Below are positions 19,964 to 27,770 of a stretch of DNA of 64,000 nucleotides, piece after piece. This DNA comes from Methylomonas sp. LW13. GTDB taxonomy: Bacteria; Pseudomonadota; Gammaproteobacteria; Methylococcales; Methylomonadaceae. Where the stretch lies: assembly GCF_016865255.1 (NCBI RefSeq), contig NZ_CP033381.1, positions 372,001 to 436,000 on the forward strand, read 5' to 3'. The position numbers and the translations under genes are program-made. Positions within the stretch are counted from its first letter, which is position 1; the number at the start of each line of letters is the position of its first letter. The notes beneath the pieces are model-generated. The model did no database searches, was not told the DNA's origin, and worked only from the letters and a program-made list of their open reading frames with translations.

Positions 19964-20299
19964 ATGACTGAATATCCCGAAAAATCTTGCAGCATCGACC
20001 GTTTGGTCCGACACCCCAAATTAGTGGCGGCAACGCTGGCCGGCGACAAAACCCAGCAACGCCGCGACGGTTTATATGCCTACCCCGGCGAAACCTTTGT
20101 ATTGGAAGACGTCGTATTTGAAGTAACTAGCGTGGAGCGCCAAAGAATAGGCGATATGAGCGACGCGGACGCCCGGGCGGAGGGTTATCCGAATCTGGCA
20201 ATGTATAAGGATTTAATATTGAAAATGCACAGCGGCATGGAGTGGAACGAGGACGGACTAGTCTGGGTGCATAGCTTTAAGCGGCAACAGCCGGAATAA
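19964..20299 (+). CDS. ASCH-domain protein
   Basis: This 111-residue protein resembles ASCH/PUA-like RNA-binding folds: KLVAATLAGDKTQQRRDGLYAYPGE at the start of the domain, then FEVTSVERQRIGDMSDADARAEGY. Such small proteins bind RNA or act on modified nucleosides. The ATG at 19964 has AAGGA about 11 bases upstream. Its 3' end overlaps the 3' end of the convergent hvfC-like gene by 23 bases. Family assignment is good; the role is unknown. Confidence 0.75.
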   Translation: MTEYPEKSCSIDRLVRHPKLVAATLAGDKTQQRRDGLYAYPGETFVLEDVVFEVTSVERQRIGDMSDADARAEGYPNLAMYKDLILKMHSGMEWNEDGLVWVHSFKRQQPE

Positions 20300-21035
20300 G
20301 AATACCTTTCTCGGCCAGCTCCCGCAGCATCGGCGGGCCGGCGGCCATTAAGGCTTGGCTATCCAGTTGCGGGAATTCCGTGGCAACCGCTTGCAAGCAC
20401 TGCTCGCCGGTCATCGGCCCTTCATCCTGCAAAATTTGCAGCAAGCGTATGGTCAAACCGGTGGTTTTCAGAAAATGCACGCAGTCGAGATTGTCGCGGT
20501 AAACGATCAAGCAAGTGGTTTGCTCCGGCGGTTCCAGCGGCAAAAAGCCGGGGCCTATTGCCTGTACCGGATAACGGTAAAGTAACGGCCAGGCCAAGGG
20601 CGATAACGCGATGCTGCGCGGCAACAACTTATCCAGAAAATCGCTGTCACCCAATATTGGTGTGTCCTTGGCAATCGACAAAGCCATTTCCACCCATTCG
20701 TAATGTGCCAATTCCAACAGAAATGGATAATCGTCCGGATTATTTCGTTCGTTTTGTAAATACGCTAAAAACTCTTCGGCAATTTCCGAGAAATAGGGTG
20801 TTTCGCAGCGATGCCGGGTAAAAAAATCCTGAGTGATTTCCTGCCATTGCGCATCATTCAGGATGGCTCGCAATACCGGAAAATTACTGGCAATAAAACT
20901 GTCGATATTGTTGAAAAACAATTCCCGATACATCGCCATACGCCGCGGCTCGACATCTGCCGGCGGCGGATTGTTTTGCGGATCGCGAATATACGCGGCA
21001 AACTGGCTTTGGGTAGCCTGAAAATCGGCAGCCAT
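20277..21035 (-). CDS. hvfC: HvfC-type RiPP maturation partner (DUF2063)
   Basis: This 252-residue protein belongs to the HvfC/BufC group, the accessory partner that presents the precursor peptide to the MNIO oxygenase. The N-terminal domain carries the conserved RRMAMYRELFFNNIDSFIAS and FPVLRAILNDAQW, and the C-terminal half is a winged-helix-like segment (LLQILQDEGPMTGEQCLQ). Its ATG overlaps the hvfB stop codon by one base (TGATG), so the two are almost certainly translated together. This strict pairing is typical of hvf, buf and mbn operons. Confidence 0.9.
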   Translation of the reverse strand: MAADFQATQSQFAAYIRDPQNNPPPADVEPRRMAMYRELFFNNIDSFIASNFPVLRAILNDAQWQEITQDFFTRHRCETPYFSEIAEEFLAYLQNERNNPDDYPFLLELAHYEWVEMALSIAKDTPILGDSDFLDKLLPRSIALSPLAWPLLYRYPVQAIGPGFLPLEPPEQTTCLIVYRDNLDCVHFLKTTGLTIRLLQILQDEGPMTGEQCLQAVATEFPQLDSQALMAAGPPMLRELAEKGILIPAVAA

Positions 21036-21886
21036 CAGGCTACCTGTTTTTGCCGACCAGCCGCATAGTGCTGCTGAATGGCTTGGATGGTATCGACTTC
21101 CTGGCTTAATTCAAGCAAGGAGGGAATGTTGAAATCCCGCTCCAGCAGGGTAGGGAACACGCCGAACAGCTCGTAAGCCTTGCCCAACAAAGTCCAGACG
21201 GGATCGATCACCGGCGCGCCGTGGGTATCGACCAGAAAATCCTCTGCTTCCACATAATGGCCGGCGATGTGCGCGTAAGCGATGCGTTCGGCAGGCATGG
21301 CCCGCAGAAAGACTTCGGCATCGTAGCCATGATTGATGCTGTTTACGTAGATATTGTTGATGTCGATCAGCACATCGCAGTCGGCTTCACTGACTACCGC
21401 GTTGAAAAAATCGATTTCGGCCATTTCCTGGCCCGGCGAGGCGTAATAAGAAATGTTTTCGATGGCCATGCGCTGTTCCAGAATGTCCTGCACCCTGCGA
21501 ATACGCGCGGCAACATGCTTGACAGCATCTTCGGTGAATGGCATCGGCATCAAATCGTATAAATGCCCGCCATGGCTGCAATAGCTAAGGTGTTCGCTGT
21601 AGAATTTGATCCCGTGCTCGCGCATGAACACTTTCAAATCGTGCACGAATTGCTCGTCGAGAGGATCGCTGCTACCTATCGACAGCGACAGGCCATGACA
21701 GACAAAATCAAAACGCTCGGTCATGGCGCGAAACTGTTTGCCGAACTTGCCACCGATGGTCATCCAGTTTTCCGGCGCCACTTCGTAAAAGCCGACATGG
21801 GCCAGCGGCGACTCGAAAATCTCGCTCAAAAACGAACGCCGTAAGCCTAAGCCGGCACCGTGAACGAGATTGCGAACGCTATCCAT
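21035..21886 (-). CDS. hvfB: HvfB-type MNIO (DUF692) peptide maturase
   Basis: This 283-residue TIM-barrel oxygenase belongs to the multinuclear non-heme iron-dependent oxidase family (DUF692), which includes MbnB of methanobactin synthesis and HvfB/BufB. Family members oxidise Cys residues of precursor peptides to oxazolone/thioamide or thiooxazole groups. Candidate iron ligands are spread over CHGLSLSIG, SEHLSY, IENISYY, DINNIYVNSINHG, HIAGH and DTHG. The start at ATG 21886 fits the GAGLGLRRSFL opening of the family. It lies 3 bases downstream of the DedA gene and overlaps hvfC. Confidence 0.93.
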   Translation of the reverse strand: MDSVRNLVHGAGLGLRRSFLSEIFESPLAHVGFYEVAPENWMTIGGKFGKQFRAMTERFDFVCHGLSLSIGSSDPLDEQFVHDLKVFMREHGIKFYSEHLSYCSHGGHLYDLMPMPFTEDAVKHVAARIRRVQDILEQRMAIENISYYASPGQEMAEIDFFNAVVSEADCDVLIDINNIYVNSINHGYDAEVFLRAMPAERIAYAHIAGHYVEAEDFLVDTHGAPVIDPVWTLLGKAYELFGVFPTLLERDFNIPSLLELSQEVDTIQAIQQHYAAGRQKQVA

Positions 21887-21889
21887 GAC

Positions 21890-22462
21890 TTACTCTTCCG
21901 GTGTTTCCGGTTTGTGGGTAGAACGCCAGAATAAGGCTAAACCAATCGCCACCAATACGCCCAGGATATACATTTCGTATTTTTTGACCTGACCCATGAT
22001 GGACTCGGCAAATTGGCCGAAGGTGTAGCCCAGATAACCGACGGCTATCGCCCAAATCCCGGCGCCGAGAAAATTCAGCAAGAAAAACTTCAAGGGATGA
22101 ATCTTGCTGGCCCCGATCACAAACGGCGTGACGTTACGTACGCCGTAGAGAAAGCGAAATCCCAATATCACCGGGATCTGATGCTTGTGCAGCAAATCGA
22201 AAACCTTGTCGGTTTTGCTATGCCAGAGCGGACGTTTCTCCAGAAAGGCGATGCCTTTCCAACGGCCCAGATAGAAAAAGGTCTGGTCGCCGGCAAAGGT
22301 ACCCAAAAACGCCGTCAGCATCACCCATTCCAATTGCAAATAGCCGCCGTGCGCTAAAAAGCCGGCGATGACCAGAATGGTTTCACCTTCCAGATACGTA
22401 CCGATAAACAAGGCTAAATAGCCGTAATCGATAACTAGCTGCTGTAAATCATTAAAATCCAT
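21890..22462 (-). CDS. DedA-family membrane protein
   Basis: This 190-residue polytopic protein of the DedA/VTT superfamily contains YLEGETILVIAGFLAHGG, a GDQTFFYLGR motif and RFLYGVRNVTPFVIG, the usual acidic and Arg-rich features of DedA proteins. These act in lipid carrier flipping and membrane or proton homeostasis. It has about five hydrophobic segments and a charged C terminus (STHKPETPEE). It sits 29 bases after the precursor gene and 3 bases before hvfB. Bufferin-type operons more often carry a DoxX-like membrane protein, so its presence here is notable. Confidence 0.9.
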   Translation of the reverse strand: MDFNDLQQLVIDYGYLALFIGTYLEGETILVIAGFLAHGGYLQLEWVMLTAFLGTFAGDQTFFYLGRWKGIAFLEKRPLWHSKTDKVFDLLHKHQIPVILGFRFLYGVRNVTPFVIGASKIHPLKFFLLNFLGAGIWAIAVGYLGYTFGQFAESIMGQVKKYEMYILGVLVAIGLALFWRSTHKPETPEE

Positions 22463-22491
22463 AGTGTCGGTCTATTGGCGATGAATCGAAA

Positions 22492-23073
22492 TTAATGGCT
22501 GGCTGCTTTGTCTGCATCCATTTTGCTCCCGCAACTACCTTCTTCGTTTTTCATCATGGCGCCGCAGCTATGTTCGCCGGCTTTTTTGTCACCACCCATC
22601 ATGGCACCGCAACTGCCTTCTTCGGCTTTCTTAGGCTTGTCGGCGCCGTGATCCATGCCACCCATGCTGCCCATACTCATCATGCCGCCGCCGGTCATCA
22701 TGCCCATGCCGCAAGCGCCTTCCTTACCCTTCATCATCGCGCCACAAGCGCTTTCCATGCCTTTTTTCATTTTGCCGCCACTCATCATGCCGCCGCACAT
22801 GCCTTCGCCGCATGAGCCTTCGGTTTTTTTCGCTTCAGCTTTTTTGGTTTCACTTTTTTTGATGCCATTGCCGTCCATTGCATTAGAGCCACACGCGCCC
22901 TGACTGATTTTGCCGTTTGAATGCTCTGCATGCGACGTCGCAACTTGCATATAGCCGCTAGACAACTCGGAAACGGCGAATGGGTTGGCATCGGCCTGCG
23001 CGTTGACAGCCATGCCGGACAAAAGCGCACCGCCCATCGCAGCGGCCAGCGGAGATTTATTAAATTTTTTCAT
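22492..23073 (-). CDS. hvfA: HvfA/bufferin-type Cys/Met-rich RiPP metallophore precursor
   Basis: This 193-residue exported low-complexity protein has a signal peptide (about 1-27, ending NAQA), then the family leader NPFAVSELSSGYMQVA (30-45), then a core with eight Cys at 61, 88, 93, 110, 121, 155, 170 and 181. Canonical EGxCG motifs are EGSCGEGMCG (85-94), EGACG, EGSCG and EGSCG; EHSCG, ESACG and QGACG are variants. Between them run Met-rich stretches (CGMGMMTGGGMMSMGSMGGM) and a His. In this family the Cys are modified by the MNIO enzyme and the exported product binds copper; that is inferred here from the operon. The ATG at 23073 has GAGG eight bases upstream. It is first in the operon. 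Confidence 0.88.
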   Translation of the reverse strand: MKKFNKSPLAAAMGGALLSGMAVNAQADANPFAVSELSSGYMQVATSHAEHSNGKISQGACGSNAMDGNGIKKSETKKAEAKKTEGSCGEGMCGGMMSGGKMKKGMESACGAMMKGKEGACGMGMMTGGGMMSMGSMGGMDHGADKPKKAEEGSCGAMMGGDKKAGEHSCGAMMKNEEGSCGSKMDADKAASH

Positions 23074-23179: not shown

Positions 23180-23815
23180 TCAGTCTAAATTCTTTGCCTT
23201 AAATTCACAGACATCGGCGATGCAGCAAGCGCCGCAACGCGGCTTCCTGGCCACACAAATATACCGGCCGTGTAGAATCAGCAGATGGTGCGCGTCTTTC
23301 TTGTATTGCTTGGGCACGGTTTTTTCCAATTTGCGCTCCACTTCCAGGACATTTTTGCCCGGCGCCAGGCCGATGCGATTGGCGACCCGGAAAATATGCG
23401 TATCTACGGCGATGGTCGGCTCCCCAAATGCGGTGTTTAAAATCACATTCGCCGTTTTGCGGCCCACCCCGGCCAGCGCCTCCAACGCTTCCCGTTCGCG
23501 CGGCACTTCGCCGCCATGCTTTTCCAGCAAAGTCTGACAAAGTTTTATGACATTTGCCGCCTTGCTGTTGAATAAGCCGATGGTTTTGATGTGCTCCTTC
23601 AAACCGTCTTCACCCAAAGCCAGGATCGCTTGCGGCGTGTTGGCCACGGGAAACAATTTGGCAGTCGCCTTGTTGACGCCCTTATCGGTCGCTTGCGCCG
23701 ACAATACCACCGCCACCAATAATTCGAACGGGGTAGTGAAATTCAGTTCGGTGGTCGGATTCGGCGTGGCTTCGGCCAAGCGCTGGAATATCTGTAGGCG
23801 TTTTTCGTTATTCAT
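23180..23815 (-). CDS. nth: endonuclease III
   Basis: Nth is a bifunctional DNA glycosylase/AP lyase for oxidised pyrimidines in base-excision repair. With the start at ATG 23815 the protein has 211 residues and begins MNNEKRLQIF, matching E. coli Nth in length and sequence; a longer frame to 23866 adds 17 unsupported residues. Visible are the helix-hairpin-helix LAGVGRKTANVIL with catalytic Lys, AVDTHIFRV with catalytic Asp, and the C-terminal 4Fe-4S ligands CVARKPRCGACCIADVC. Confidence 0.96.
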   Translation of the reverse strand: MNNEKRLQIFQRLAEATPNPTTELNFTTPFELLVAVVLSAQATDKGVNKATAKLFPVANTPQAILALGEDGLKEHIKTIGLFNSKAANVIKLCQTLLEKHGGEVPREREALEALAGVGRKTANVILNTAFGEPTIAVDTHIFRVANRIGLAPGKNVLEVERKLEKTVPKQYKKDAHHLLILHGRYICVARKPRCGACCIADVCEFKAKNLD

Positions 23816-23884
23816 GCTCAAAAAGGGATACAAAGCCAAGCTTTCCAGGATTCTCCCGGCTTGCAAGGCAAATATTGGTGGCGT

Positions 23885-23942: not shown

Positions 23943-24026
23943 TGGAACCAAACTCGCGCGCATCAAGTCACTAGCTAGCACTCAGAATGGGTGCGGAAAA
24001 CCACAACAATTCAATTCGGGGGAATT

Positions 24027-24362
24027 ATGAAAACATTTACTGCCATTACCATTAGTGCATTACTGCTCGCGAGTGCCGGTGTATTCGCCGAAGAACATGC
24101 TACCGAAGCCTTGAAGCATGCCGAACAGGCTGTCACCCACGGCAAAGCCGGCCATAGCCCCGTCTTGGTGGAGCATGCCGAAGCGGCCTTAACCCATGCC
24201 AAGAAAGGTGCTGAAGTCGCCAAGGGCGAATCTAAAACGCATCTCGATGCCGGGGTAAAATCCCTGGAAAGCGCAATTGAACACGGCAAAATGGGACATG
24301 CCGATGTCGCTACCAAAGCGGCAGAAGAAGCCGTTGACCATATCAAGGCGGGCAACAAGTAG
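24027..24362 (+). CDS. smbP: SmbP-like small periplasmic metal-binding protein
   Basis: This 111-residue protein has a signal peptide (cleavage near GVFA|EEH) and a mature helical chain with ten His spaced in heptad-like repeats (HAEQAVTHGKAGH, HAEAALTHAKKG, EHGKMGHAD). This matches SmbP, a Cu- and divalent-metal-binding four-helix protein first described in Nitrosomonas. The start at ATG 24027 has a GGGGGAA RBS; the longer frame to 23991 is unsupported. It is probably a periplasmic metal buffer. It sits close to the hvf RiPP operon, divided from it by nth. Confidence 0.87.
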   Translation: MKTFTAITISALLLASAGVFAEEHATEALKHAEQAVTHGKAGHSPVLVEHAEAALTHAKKGAEVAKGESKTHLDAGVKSLESAIEHGKMGHADVATKAAEEAVDHIKAGNK

Positions 24363-27362: not shown

Positions 27363-27383
27363 AATAACTGTGAGGTTCAATAC

Positions 27384-27770
27384 ATGAAAATTTTAAAAAG
27401 TGCTGTTATCGCGTTCTCTTTAGCTGCTGCCATGGGTTCTTTTTCAACAGCTGCCGTTGCTGAATCTGATCCAGGTAGAACTGCTTACAAACCTACCGAT
27501 GTAATCAATGAAGTTGTAGCGCGTATTACAGCTGCCGAGGCAGCAATCAACAATGGTGCTGAAGATGCTGCCGTTGTCGATTTGATCCAAAAAGCGGCTG
27601 GTTTTATCAAAGAACTGAACGCAAACGACAAGGTTGCCAGATATGCCGATAAAGCTAGAGGCCATTTGAAAGCAGCCATTACTGCCGCTAAAGCCGCTAA
27701 CTTGCAAGAAGCCAAACAACATTTAGCTGCCGGCAAAGAAGGCGTTGAAGCTTTGAAAAAAATGCTTTAA
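27384..27770 (+). CDS. small secreted helical protein, possibly SmbP-fold, without His
   Basis: This 128-residue protein has a clear signal peptide (cleavage near AAVA|ESD). The mature part is nearly all helix-forming (INEVVARITAAEAAINNG, VVDLIQKAAGFIKEL, RGHLKAAITAAKAANLQEA, HLAAGKEGVEALKKML), with the four-helix repeat look of SmbP but only two His. ATG 27384 has GAGG eight bases upstream; the longer frame to 27186 is unsupported. It has its own promoter and a strong terminator, and its Ala/Lys-rich low-complexity composition suggests high expression. The function is not known. Confidence 0.8.
   Translation: MKILKSAVIAFSLAAAMGSFSTAAVAESDPGRTAYKPTDVINEVVARITAAEAAINNGAEDAAVVDLIQKAAGFIKELNANDKVARYADKARGHLKAAITAAKAANLQEAKQHLAAGKEGVEALKKML

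Follow-up and report, generated by a model that had tools for sequence, protein, structure and literature searches.

What does the four-gene operon on the minus strand between positions 23073 and 20277 of a 64,000-nucleotide stretch of the Methylomonas sp. LW13 genome (hereafter, the window) produce, and what might its product do in a methanotroph? The operon encodes, in this order, a Cys/Met-rich precursor, a DedA membrane protein, an HvfB-type multinuclear non-heme iron-dependent oxidative enzyme (MNIO), and an HvfC-type partner protein. Judged from its sequence, it is an hvfABC-type operon with an ordinary enzyme side. It probably makes a ribosomally synthesized and post-translationally modified peptide (RiPP), namely a thiooxazole-bearing periplasmic Cu(I) buffer of the “captophorin” class, on the HvfA side. 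By its enzymes, the product is of captophorin kind with a variant precursor; the interesting part is the Met-rich module of this precursor, which went unremarked in an initial annotation of the stretch, and the spread of this module across one methanotroph family.

Operon organization and enzymes

The open reading frames (ORFs) in the window confirm the place and gene order given by the initial annotation, with 29 bases between the precursor and DedA genes, 3 bases between the DedA and MNIO genes, and a one-base overlap of the MNIO and DUF2063 genes. The features of the operon are as follows.

22492..23073, minus strand: hvfA-like precursor, 193 residues, predicted mature part with 8 Cys and 22 Met
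22993..23073, minus strand: putative Sec signal peptide, residues 1–27, cut after AQA (sequence inspection)
22708..22821, minus strand: Cys4/Met module EGSCGEGMCGGMMSGGKMKKGMESACGAMMKGKEGACG, residues 85–122 (pattern and profile)
21890..22462, minus strand: DedA (VTT domain) membrane protein, 190 residues (Pfam), an operon guest in part of Methylomonas
21035..21886, minus strand: hvfB, MNIO (DUF692) maturase, 283 residues (Pfam and NCBIfam)
20277..21035, minus strand: hvfC, DUF2063/NGO1945_C partner with a RiPP recognition element (RRE), 252 residues (Pfam and NCBIfam)

The MNIO matches Pfam MbnB_TglH_ChrH with 350.5 bits (cut-off 25) and passes the NCBIfam equivalog NF003818 (432.7 bits, cut-off 360). 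Its partner matches DUF2063 (98.4 bits, cut-off 27.2) and NGO1945_C (93.7 bits, cut-off 27) and passes NF050145 (314 bits, cut-off 142). DedA is recognized by VTT_dom (68 bits, cut-off 33.9). The precursor ORF matches no Pfam family, and no Rfam match at gathering score occurs anywhere in the window. Among solved structures, the MNIO is closest to 3BWW and the partner to 3DEE (PME1). The DxNN motif at residue 175 and the DTHG motif at residue 220 of the window HvfB both align with 3BWW and correspond, by motif and spacing, to N175, D242, and H244, which are reported to be essential in HvfB (PMC13419390). The operon thus contains the gene set that marks captophorins, i.e., an MNIO with a DUF2063 (PME1) partner and a Cys-rich precursor.

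Comparison with known systems

The HvfABC(X)/oxazolin system of nontypeable Haemophilus influenzae (PMC13419390) shares with the window the HvfB- and HvfC-equivalog enzymes, a signal-peptide-bearing precursor with Cys-Gly repeats, and the A-B-C order. There, HvfBC is reported to make 5-thiooxazoles on HvfA, with a preference for the substrate that carries the signal peptide. The described repeat is AEGKCGEGKCG, whereas the window precursor has EG[S/A/M]CG and CGxMM; in addition, the window operon lacks HvfX/DoxX and has DedA between A and B. HvfX (DoxX) is frequent, but not universal, in the operons of relatives. The captophorins fontiphorin, gonophorin, and bulbicupramide (PMC12668002, PMC12538549) share the MNIO and its DUF2063 (PME1) partner, Cys-rich substrates, and the expected 5-thiooxazole. 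However, the fontiphorin and gonophorin precursors have EGKCG repeats, and a paired-Met module is not mentioned for captophorins in the accessible text of these sources. Bufferins, gonophorin, oxazolin, and bulbicupramide are all reported to bind copper. The initial annotation also considered oxazolone and thioamide groups, which are those reported for methanobactin; for systems of this kind, the known group is 5-thiooxazole. Since the assignment for oxazolin itself has been revised to 5-thiooxazole (PMC12668002, PMC13419390), this is the group expected here.

The operon had been labeled HvfABC/bufferin type. The first half of this label holds, as HvfB and HvfC are over their cut-offs, but the second does not. 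Bufferins (BufA1/DUF2282, BufA2) likewise are copper binders with a signal peptide that are modified by an MNIO, but they have other precursor families and another MNIO, BufB. The window precursor matches neither PF10048 nor NF050166, i.e., it is neither a DUF2282 nor a BufA2 protein, and its MNIO scores 267.9 bits against the BufB model NF050167, below the cut-off of 310; a bufferin proper was therefore rejected.

The precursor and its Cys/Met module

The first 27 residues of the precursor comprise a Lys-rich start, a hydrophobic stretch, and an AQA end, and from their appearance the protein would be exported. By analogy with HvfA, the RRE partner is also expected to recognize the signal peptide as the leader. 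The predicted mature part contains 8 Cys, 22 Met, and 5 His, and every Cys is followed by Gly. The EGxCG character attributed to the precursor at the outset is borne out by EGSCG (three times), EGMCG, and EGACG, but the other three Cys lie in ESACG, EHSCG, and QGACG, and EGKCG does not occur. The residue before Cys is Ala in three cases, Ser in four, and Met in one.

The module spans about 38 residues, EGxCGEGxCGxMM..GKMKxGMExxCGxMMKGKEGxCG, and is present in one or two copies per protein. At least one CGxMM motif was found in all 120 closest relatives of the window precursor (best 120 of 598; median, 4) and in none of the 120 closest relatives of an EGKCG paralogue from the same genome (best 120 of 310), each set having been collected using its own query. 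An alignment of 19 module representatives, picked by a pattern already requiring Cys and Met, has 19 invariant columns. Among 287 unique instances retrieved by profile search, Cys9, Cys26, Cys37, Met12, Met13, Met29, and Met30 are each at least 99% conserved, the Met pairs matching three of the four Cys in this respect. Met18 (93%) and Met22 (75%) are less constant, and positions 3, 8, 11, 14, 24, and 25 are variable. In an AlphaFold2 model of the precursor built from 49 sequences, the mean pLDDT is 50.8 and the pTM 0.19; the blocks of residues 91–100 and 101–110 alone rise above the rest (pLDDT of 66 and 72, respectively).

NCBI names some relatives of the window and EGKCG precursors, from Methyloprofundus, Methylobacter, and Methylotuvimicrobium among others, as HvfA-family metallophores or copper-binding RiPPs; such naming is already known and not new. 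In the titles, abstract openings, and passages of the papers listed by literature searches, no description was found of the Met module, which is not searchable by words, or of DedA in an MNIO operon.

Distribution of the module and of HvfB

A precursor match was found in all 37 genomes of the genus (short and weak in G024, which is 83% complete) and HvfB, at E ≤ 1e-80, in 183 of 201 genomes of the order; thus, the operon is not a chance arrangement. By hand count, HvfB is present in 125 of 127 Methylomonadaceae genomes and in 58 of 74 outside the family. When viral contigs were scanned once with HvfB, no match was confirmed, and viral carriage was rejected.

Within Methylomonas, 28 of 30 loci, including that of the window, contain the strict module pattern, and the other two (L036 and L038) have near-forms. 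The comparison of HvfB neighborhoods was then extended to 26 other genera of the family (one genome each), four other families of the order (13 loci in all), and an additional Methylomonas. A module, detected by profile match, adjoins HvfB in 22 of the 26 genera. In the remaining four, the precursor is module-less (L043 and L065) or does not appear beside HvfB (L045 and L063). The genome G594, in which a module is present (L173), is identical to G201, of the genus of L063, as judged by contig number and start. The strict pattern is absent from all 13 loci of other families, comprising 11 parsed precursors plus L071 and L074; at two of the 13 loci (L069 and L081), the profile has weak matches to part of its length.

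Ten of the 369 genomes (272 genera) in a sample of the class had a module-profile match, with 65.4 bits for the window’s own genome and at most 26.4 bits for the other nine; a Cys-rich frame was recovered in five of these nine weak loci, none bearing the strict pattern. The sole other family genome listed in this sample, G044, is the genome of L043 and had no module match. A search of genome contigs from 84,980 species confirmed 180 stretches. The best 80 of these belong, by title, to Methylococcales, to methanotrophic symbionts, or to metagenome-assembled genomes titled ‘proteobacterium’ or ‘Gammaproteobacteria’, and 77 of the 80 contain the strict pattern. On this sequence evidence, the module looks confined almost wholly to one methanotroph family.

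Further MNIO and precursor loci of the host genome

The window lies within a single 5.23 Mb contig. Two pmoA/amoA-family genes in this genome, together with its Methylomonas relatives, agree with the earlier view that the host is probably a methanotroph. A PF05114 search revealed three MNIO loci, i.e., that of the window, L006, and L007. L006 contains a DUF2282 precursor, BufB (388.7 bits, cut-off 310), DoxX, and a partner with an HvfC match below the cut-off (46.5 bits against 142). It is a DUF2282 bufferin operon, and the sole DUF2282 match in the genome is located at 1.37 Mb. Just downstream of it (L006:7589-9154), genes resembling those for a molybdopterin oxidoreductase and a ferric reductase were noted by eye from the translation. 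L007 is an EGKCG hvfABCX operon, the precursor, HvfB, HvfC, and HvfX of which are each over their own cut-off. A fourth, HvfA-like precursor stands unlinked:

L041:4572-4916, minus strand: HvfA-like precursor, 114 residues, beside an apparent iscR-iscS-iscA cluster

Many genomes of the genus show a second, shorter precursor match akin to this one.

Methanobactin (MbnABC) shares the MNIO superfamily and copper with the window system, but it is a short secreted peptide made with an MbnC partner. It was rejected for the window because the MNIO scores 49 bits against the MbnB model, for which the cut-off is 325. The search for mbn genes proposed in the initial annotation yielded no MbnB over the cut-off in the one-contig genome (best score, 67.3). 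The operon had been viewed as a second, non-methanobactin copper route. This view does not hold, since no MbnB passes the cut-off, while the genome contains three other precursors, namely those of the bufferin operon and of the EGKCG hvfABCX operon and the unlinked one; the window operon is one of three MNIO systems.

Proposed function and alternative explanations

From these features, we infer modification, export, copper binding, thioether ligation, and a physiological role, as follows. HvfC would bind the precursor by its signal-peptide/leader end and present it to HvfB. This multinuclear iron enzyme would use O2 to convert the cysteines of the Cys-Gly pairs to 5-thiooxazoles. Cut after AQA, the unmodified protein has a predicted average mass of 16,593.8 Da; the expected mass change would be −4.03 Da per thiooxazole, with at most eight such groups, or about −32.25 Da. 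The modified protein would then pass through Sec to the periplasm, where Cu(I) may be bound by the sulfurs of the thiooxazoles together with the fixed Met-Met pairs after CGx. Met thioethers favor Cu(I). A methanotroph that depends on copper would thereby gain a buffer or reservoir for this metal, with DedA as a dispensable accessory. By analogy with known systems, the modified periplasmic copper sponge suggested earlier remains the likeliest function.

Several observations weigh against this assignment. The precursor scores 19.1 bits against the HvfA-domain model NF050137, 0.4 below the cut-off of 19.5, and a whole-genome search with this model lists two other precursors, the window precursor not being among them. 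Two DoxX queries gave no match below E 0.1 in the window, which thus contains no DoxX/HvfX, while both other MNIO operons of the genome (L006 and L007) include it. The Cys-Gly contexts of the precursor find support in FonBC, which is reported to prefer a small residue after Cys and to tolerate Ala or Thr in place of Lys before it; however, FonBC is another enzyme, and Ser and Met before Cys are not among its variants in the accessible text. In the module, the non-ligand residues Gly27, Gly38, Lys31, and Glu23 are also at least 99% conserved and Cys4 just 87%, and all of these figures are inflated because the 287 instances came from a profile built on regex-chosen seeds. Furthermore, HvfB at E ≤ 1e-80 is found in none of the 10 genomes of group f6, seven of which carry pmoA-family genes. 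Copper-dependent methane oxidation therefore does not need the system. The seven genomes are G041, G054, G058, G061, G065, G075, and G079. Nine family members have HvfB but no pmoA-family match, perhaps through assembly loss; neither these nor the f6 genomes support a strict pmoA–HvfB link. Accordingly, although almost all members of the family have the enzyme, particulate methane monooxygenase (pMMO) as such does not need it.

The product might serve copper detoxification alone, as a bufferin-like sponge under copper stress that is unconnected to the supply of pMMO; this is a plausible explanation, with somewhat less than an even chance of being correct. Relatives are reported to support growth under copper stress, namely bufferins and mmrABC in E. 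coli, and the f6 genomes argue against a necessary supply role. On the other hand, the near-universality of HvfB in the family and the retention of the MNIO in mussel, snail, and sponge endosymbionts speak for more than detoxification, although they are not decisive.

Alternatively, the product may be a store or delivery protein that keeps periplasmic Cu(I) for pMMO and other cuproenzymes. The copper dependence of a host with two pmoA-family genes, the lack of an MbnB over the cut-off, and the several precursors in the genome are consistent with such a role, and the conserved Met pairs would suit exchangeable Cu(I) binding. However, no transport partner adjoins the operon and the f6 genomes do without HvfB, which leaves this role doubtful.

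It is improbable that the Met-rich protein binds copper or zinc through unmodified Cys and Met residues while the neighboring MNIO acts on another precursor. The genome does contain other precursors, and HvfB was missing from the fetched flank at 21 of the best 80 module loci, four of these ending at a contig edge. HvfB was nevertheless linked at the other 59, and the Cys-Gly contexts are of a kind accepted by FonBC. A PF05114 search of 18 of the 21 genomes with an unlinked precursor (plus two linked ones) detected an MNIO over the cut-off in 17 of the 18, with a fragment in G592; this co-occurrence is weak support, because HvfB occurs in almost all genomes of the family anyway. Stronger support for modification comes from a genome sampled twice (G056 and G575, of identical sequence). 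It has HvfB and HvfC without an adjacent precursor at L045, with a DoxX-like match upstream, and an unlinked module precursor at L108, and it may represent a natural case of action in trans.

DedA, present here as first annotated, is not a conserved part of the system. It adjoins HvfB in 19 of 28 Methylomonas genomes and lies elsewhere in six (places compared by hand), and no relative was found at E ≤ 1e-20 in three. Among 50 genomes of other genera with a DedA match, 43 were comparable, the other seven having no best HvfB place listed, and the best DedA and HvfB places were adjacent in none of the 43. DedA was also near HvfB in none of 39 loci from other genera, and on an HvfB tree of 33 rows its label requires three changes. 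With this patchy occurrence beside hvfB, DedA is, within the genomes sampled, a guest in some members of a single genus, and it was rejected as a core component in general. An essential fourth component, e.g., a membrane partner replacing DoxX/HvfX, would fit the 29- and 3-base gaps, the 19 adjoining genomes, and the window’s lack of DoxX, but it is very unlikely given the nine Methylomonas genomes in which DedA is away from hvfB or not found, the loci of other genera, and the tree.

Flanking genes

Two genes lie upstream of the operon.

23180-23866, minus strand: nth (endonuclease III-like), directly upstream of the operon on the same strand
23991-24362, plus strand: small metal-binding protein of the SmbP family (PF16785, 130 bits), about 0.9 kb from the operon, on the far side of nth

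The nth gene was found at 29 of the 30 loci from Methylomonas, at 21 of the 26 from other family genera, and at 3 of the 13 from other families. SmbP was rejected as a fixed partner, since the corresponding counts are 16 (that of the window included), none, and one. An upstream alignment of the genus, inspected by eye, shows a conserved stretch resembling TGCAATAATCAG close to where nth ends, as well as a possible hairpin. About 3 kb from the SmbP gene, positions 27375-27770 of the window (plus strand) encode a small, helical, exported-looking protein with no Pfam family.

Implications

It is tentatively suggested, as a rather uncertain extension of the Cu(I)-buffer assignment, that the module forms a copper site of a new kind, with thiooxazoles made by the MNIO and fixed Met pairs jointly binding Cu(I), and that it serves as the general periplasmic copper reservoir of the family. 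The presence of HvfB in nearly all family genomes and the seemingly family-confined Cys/Met module make a direct and cheap test possible. If the Met pairs matter, the class of thiooxazole metallophores would widen to mixed thiooxazole–thioether sites. A joint site acting as a reservoir, if true, would account for the handling of copper for pMMO in those members of the family that lack methanobactin.

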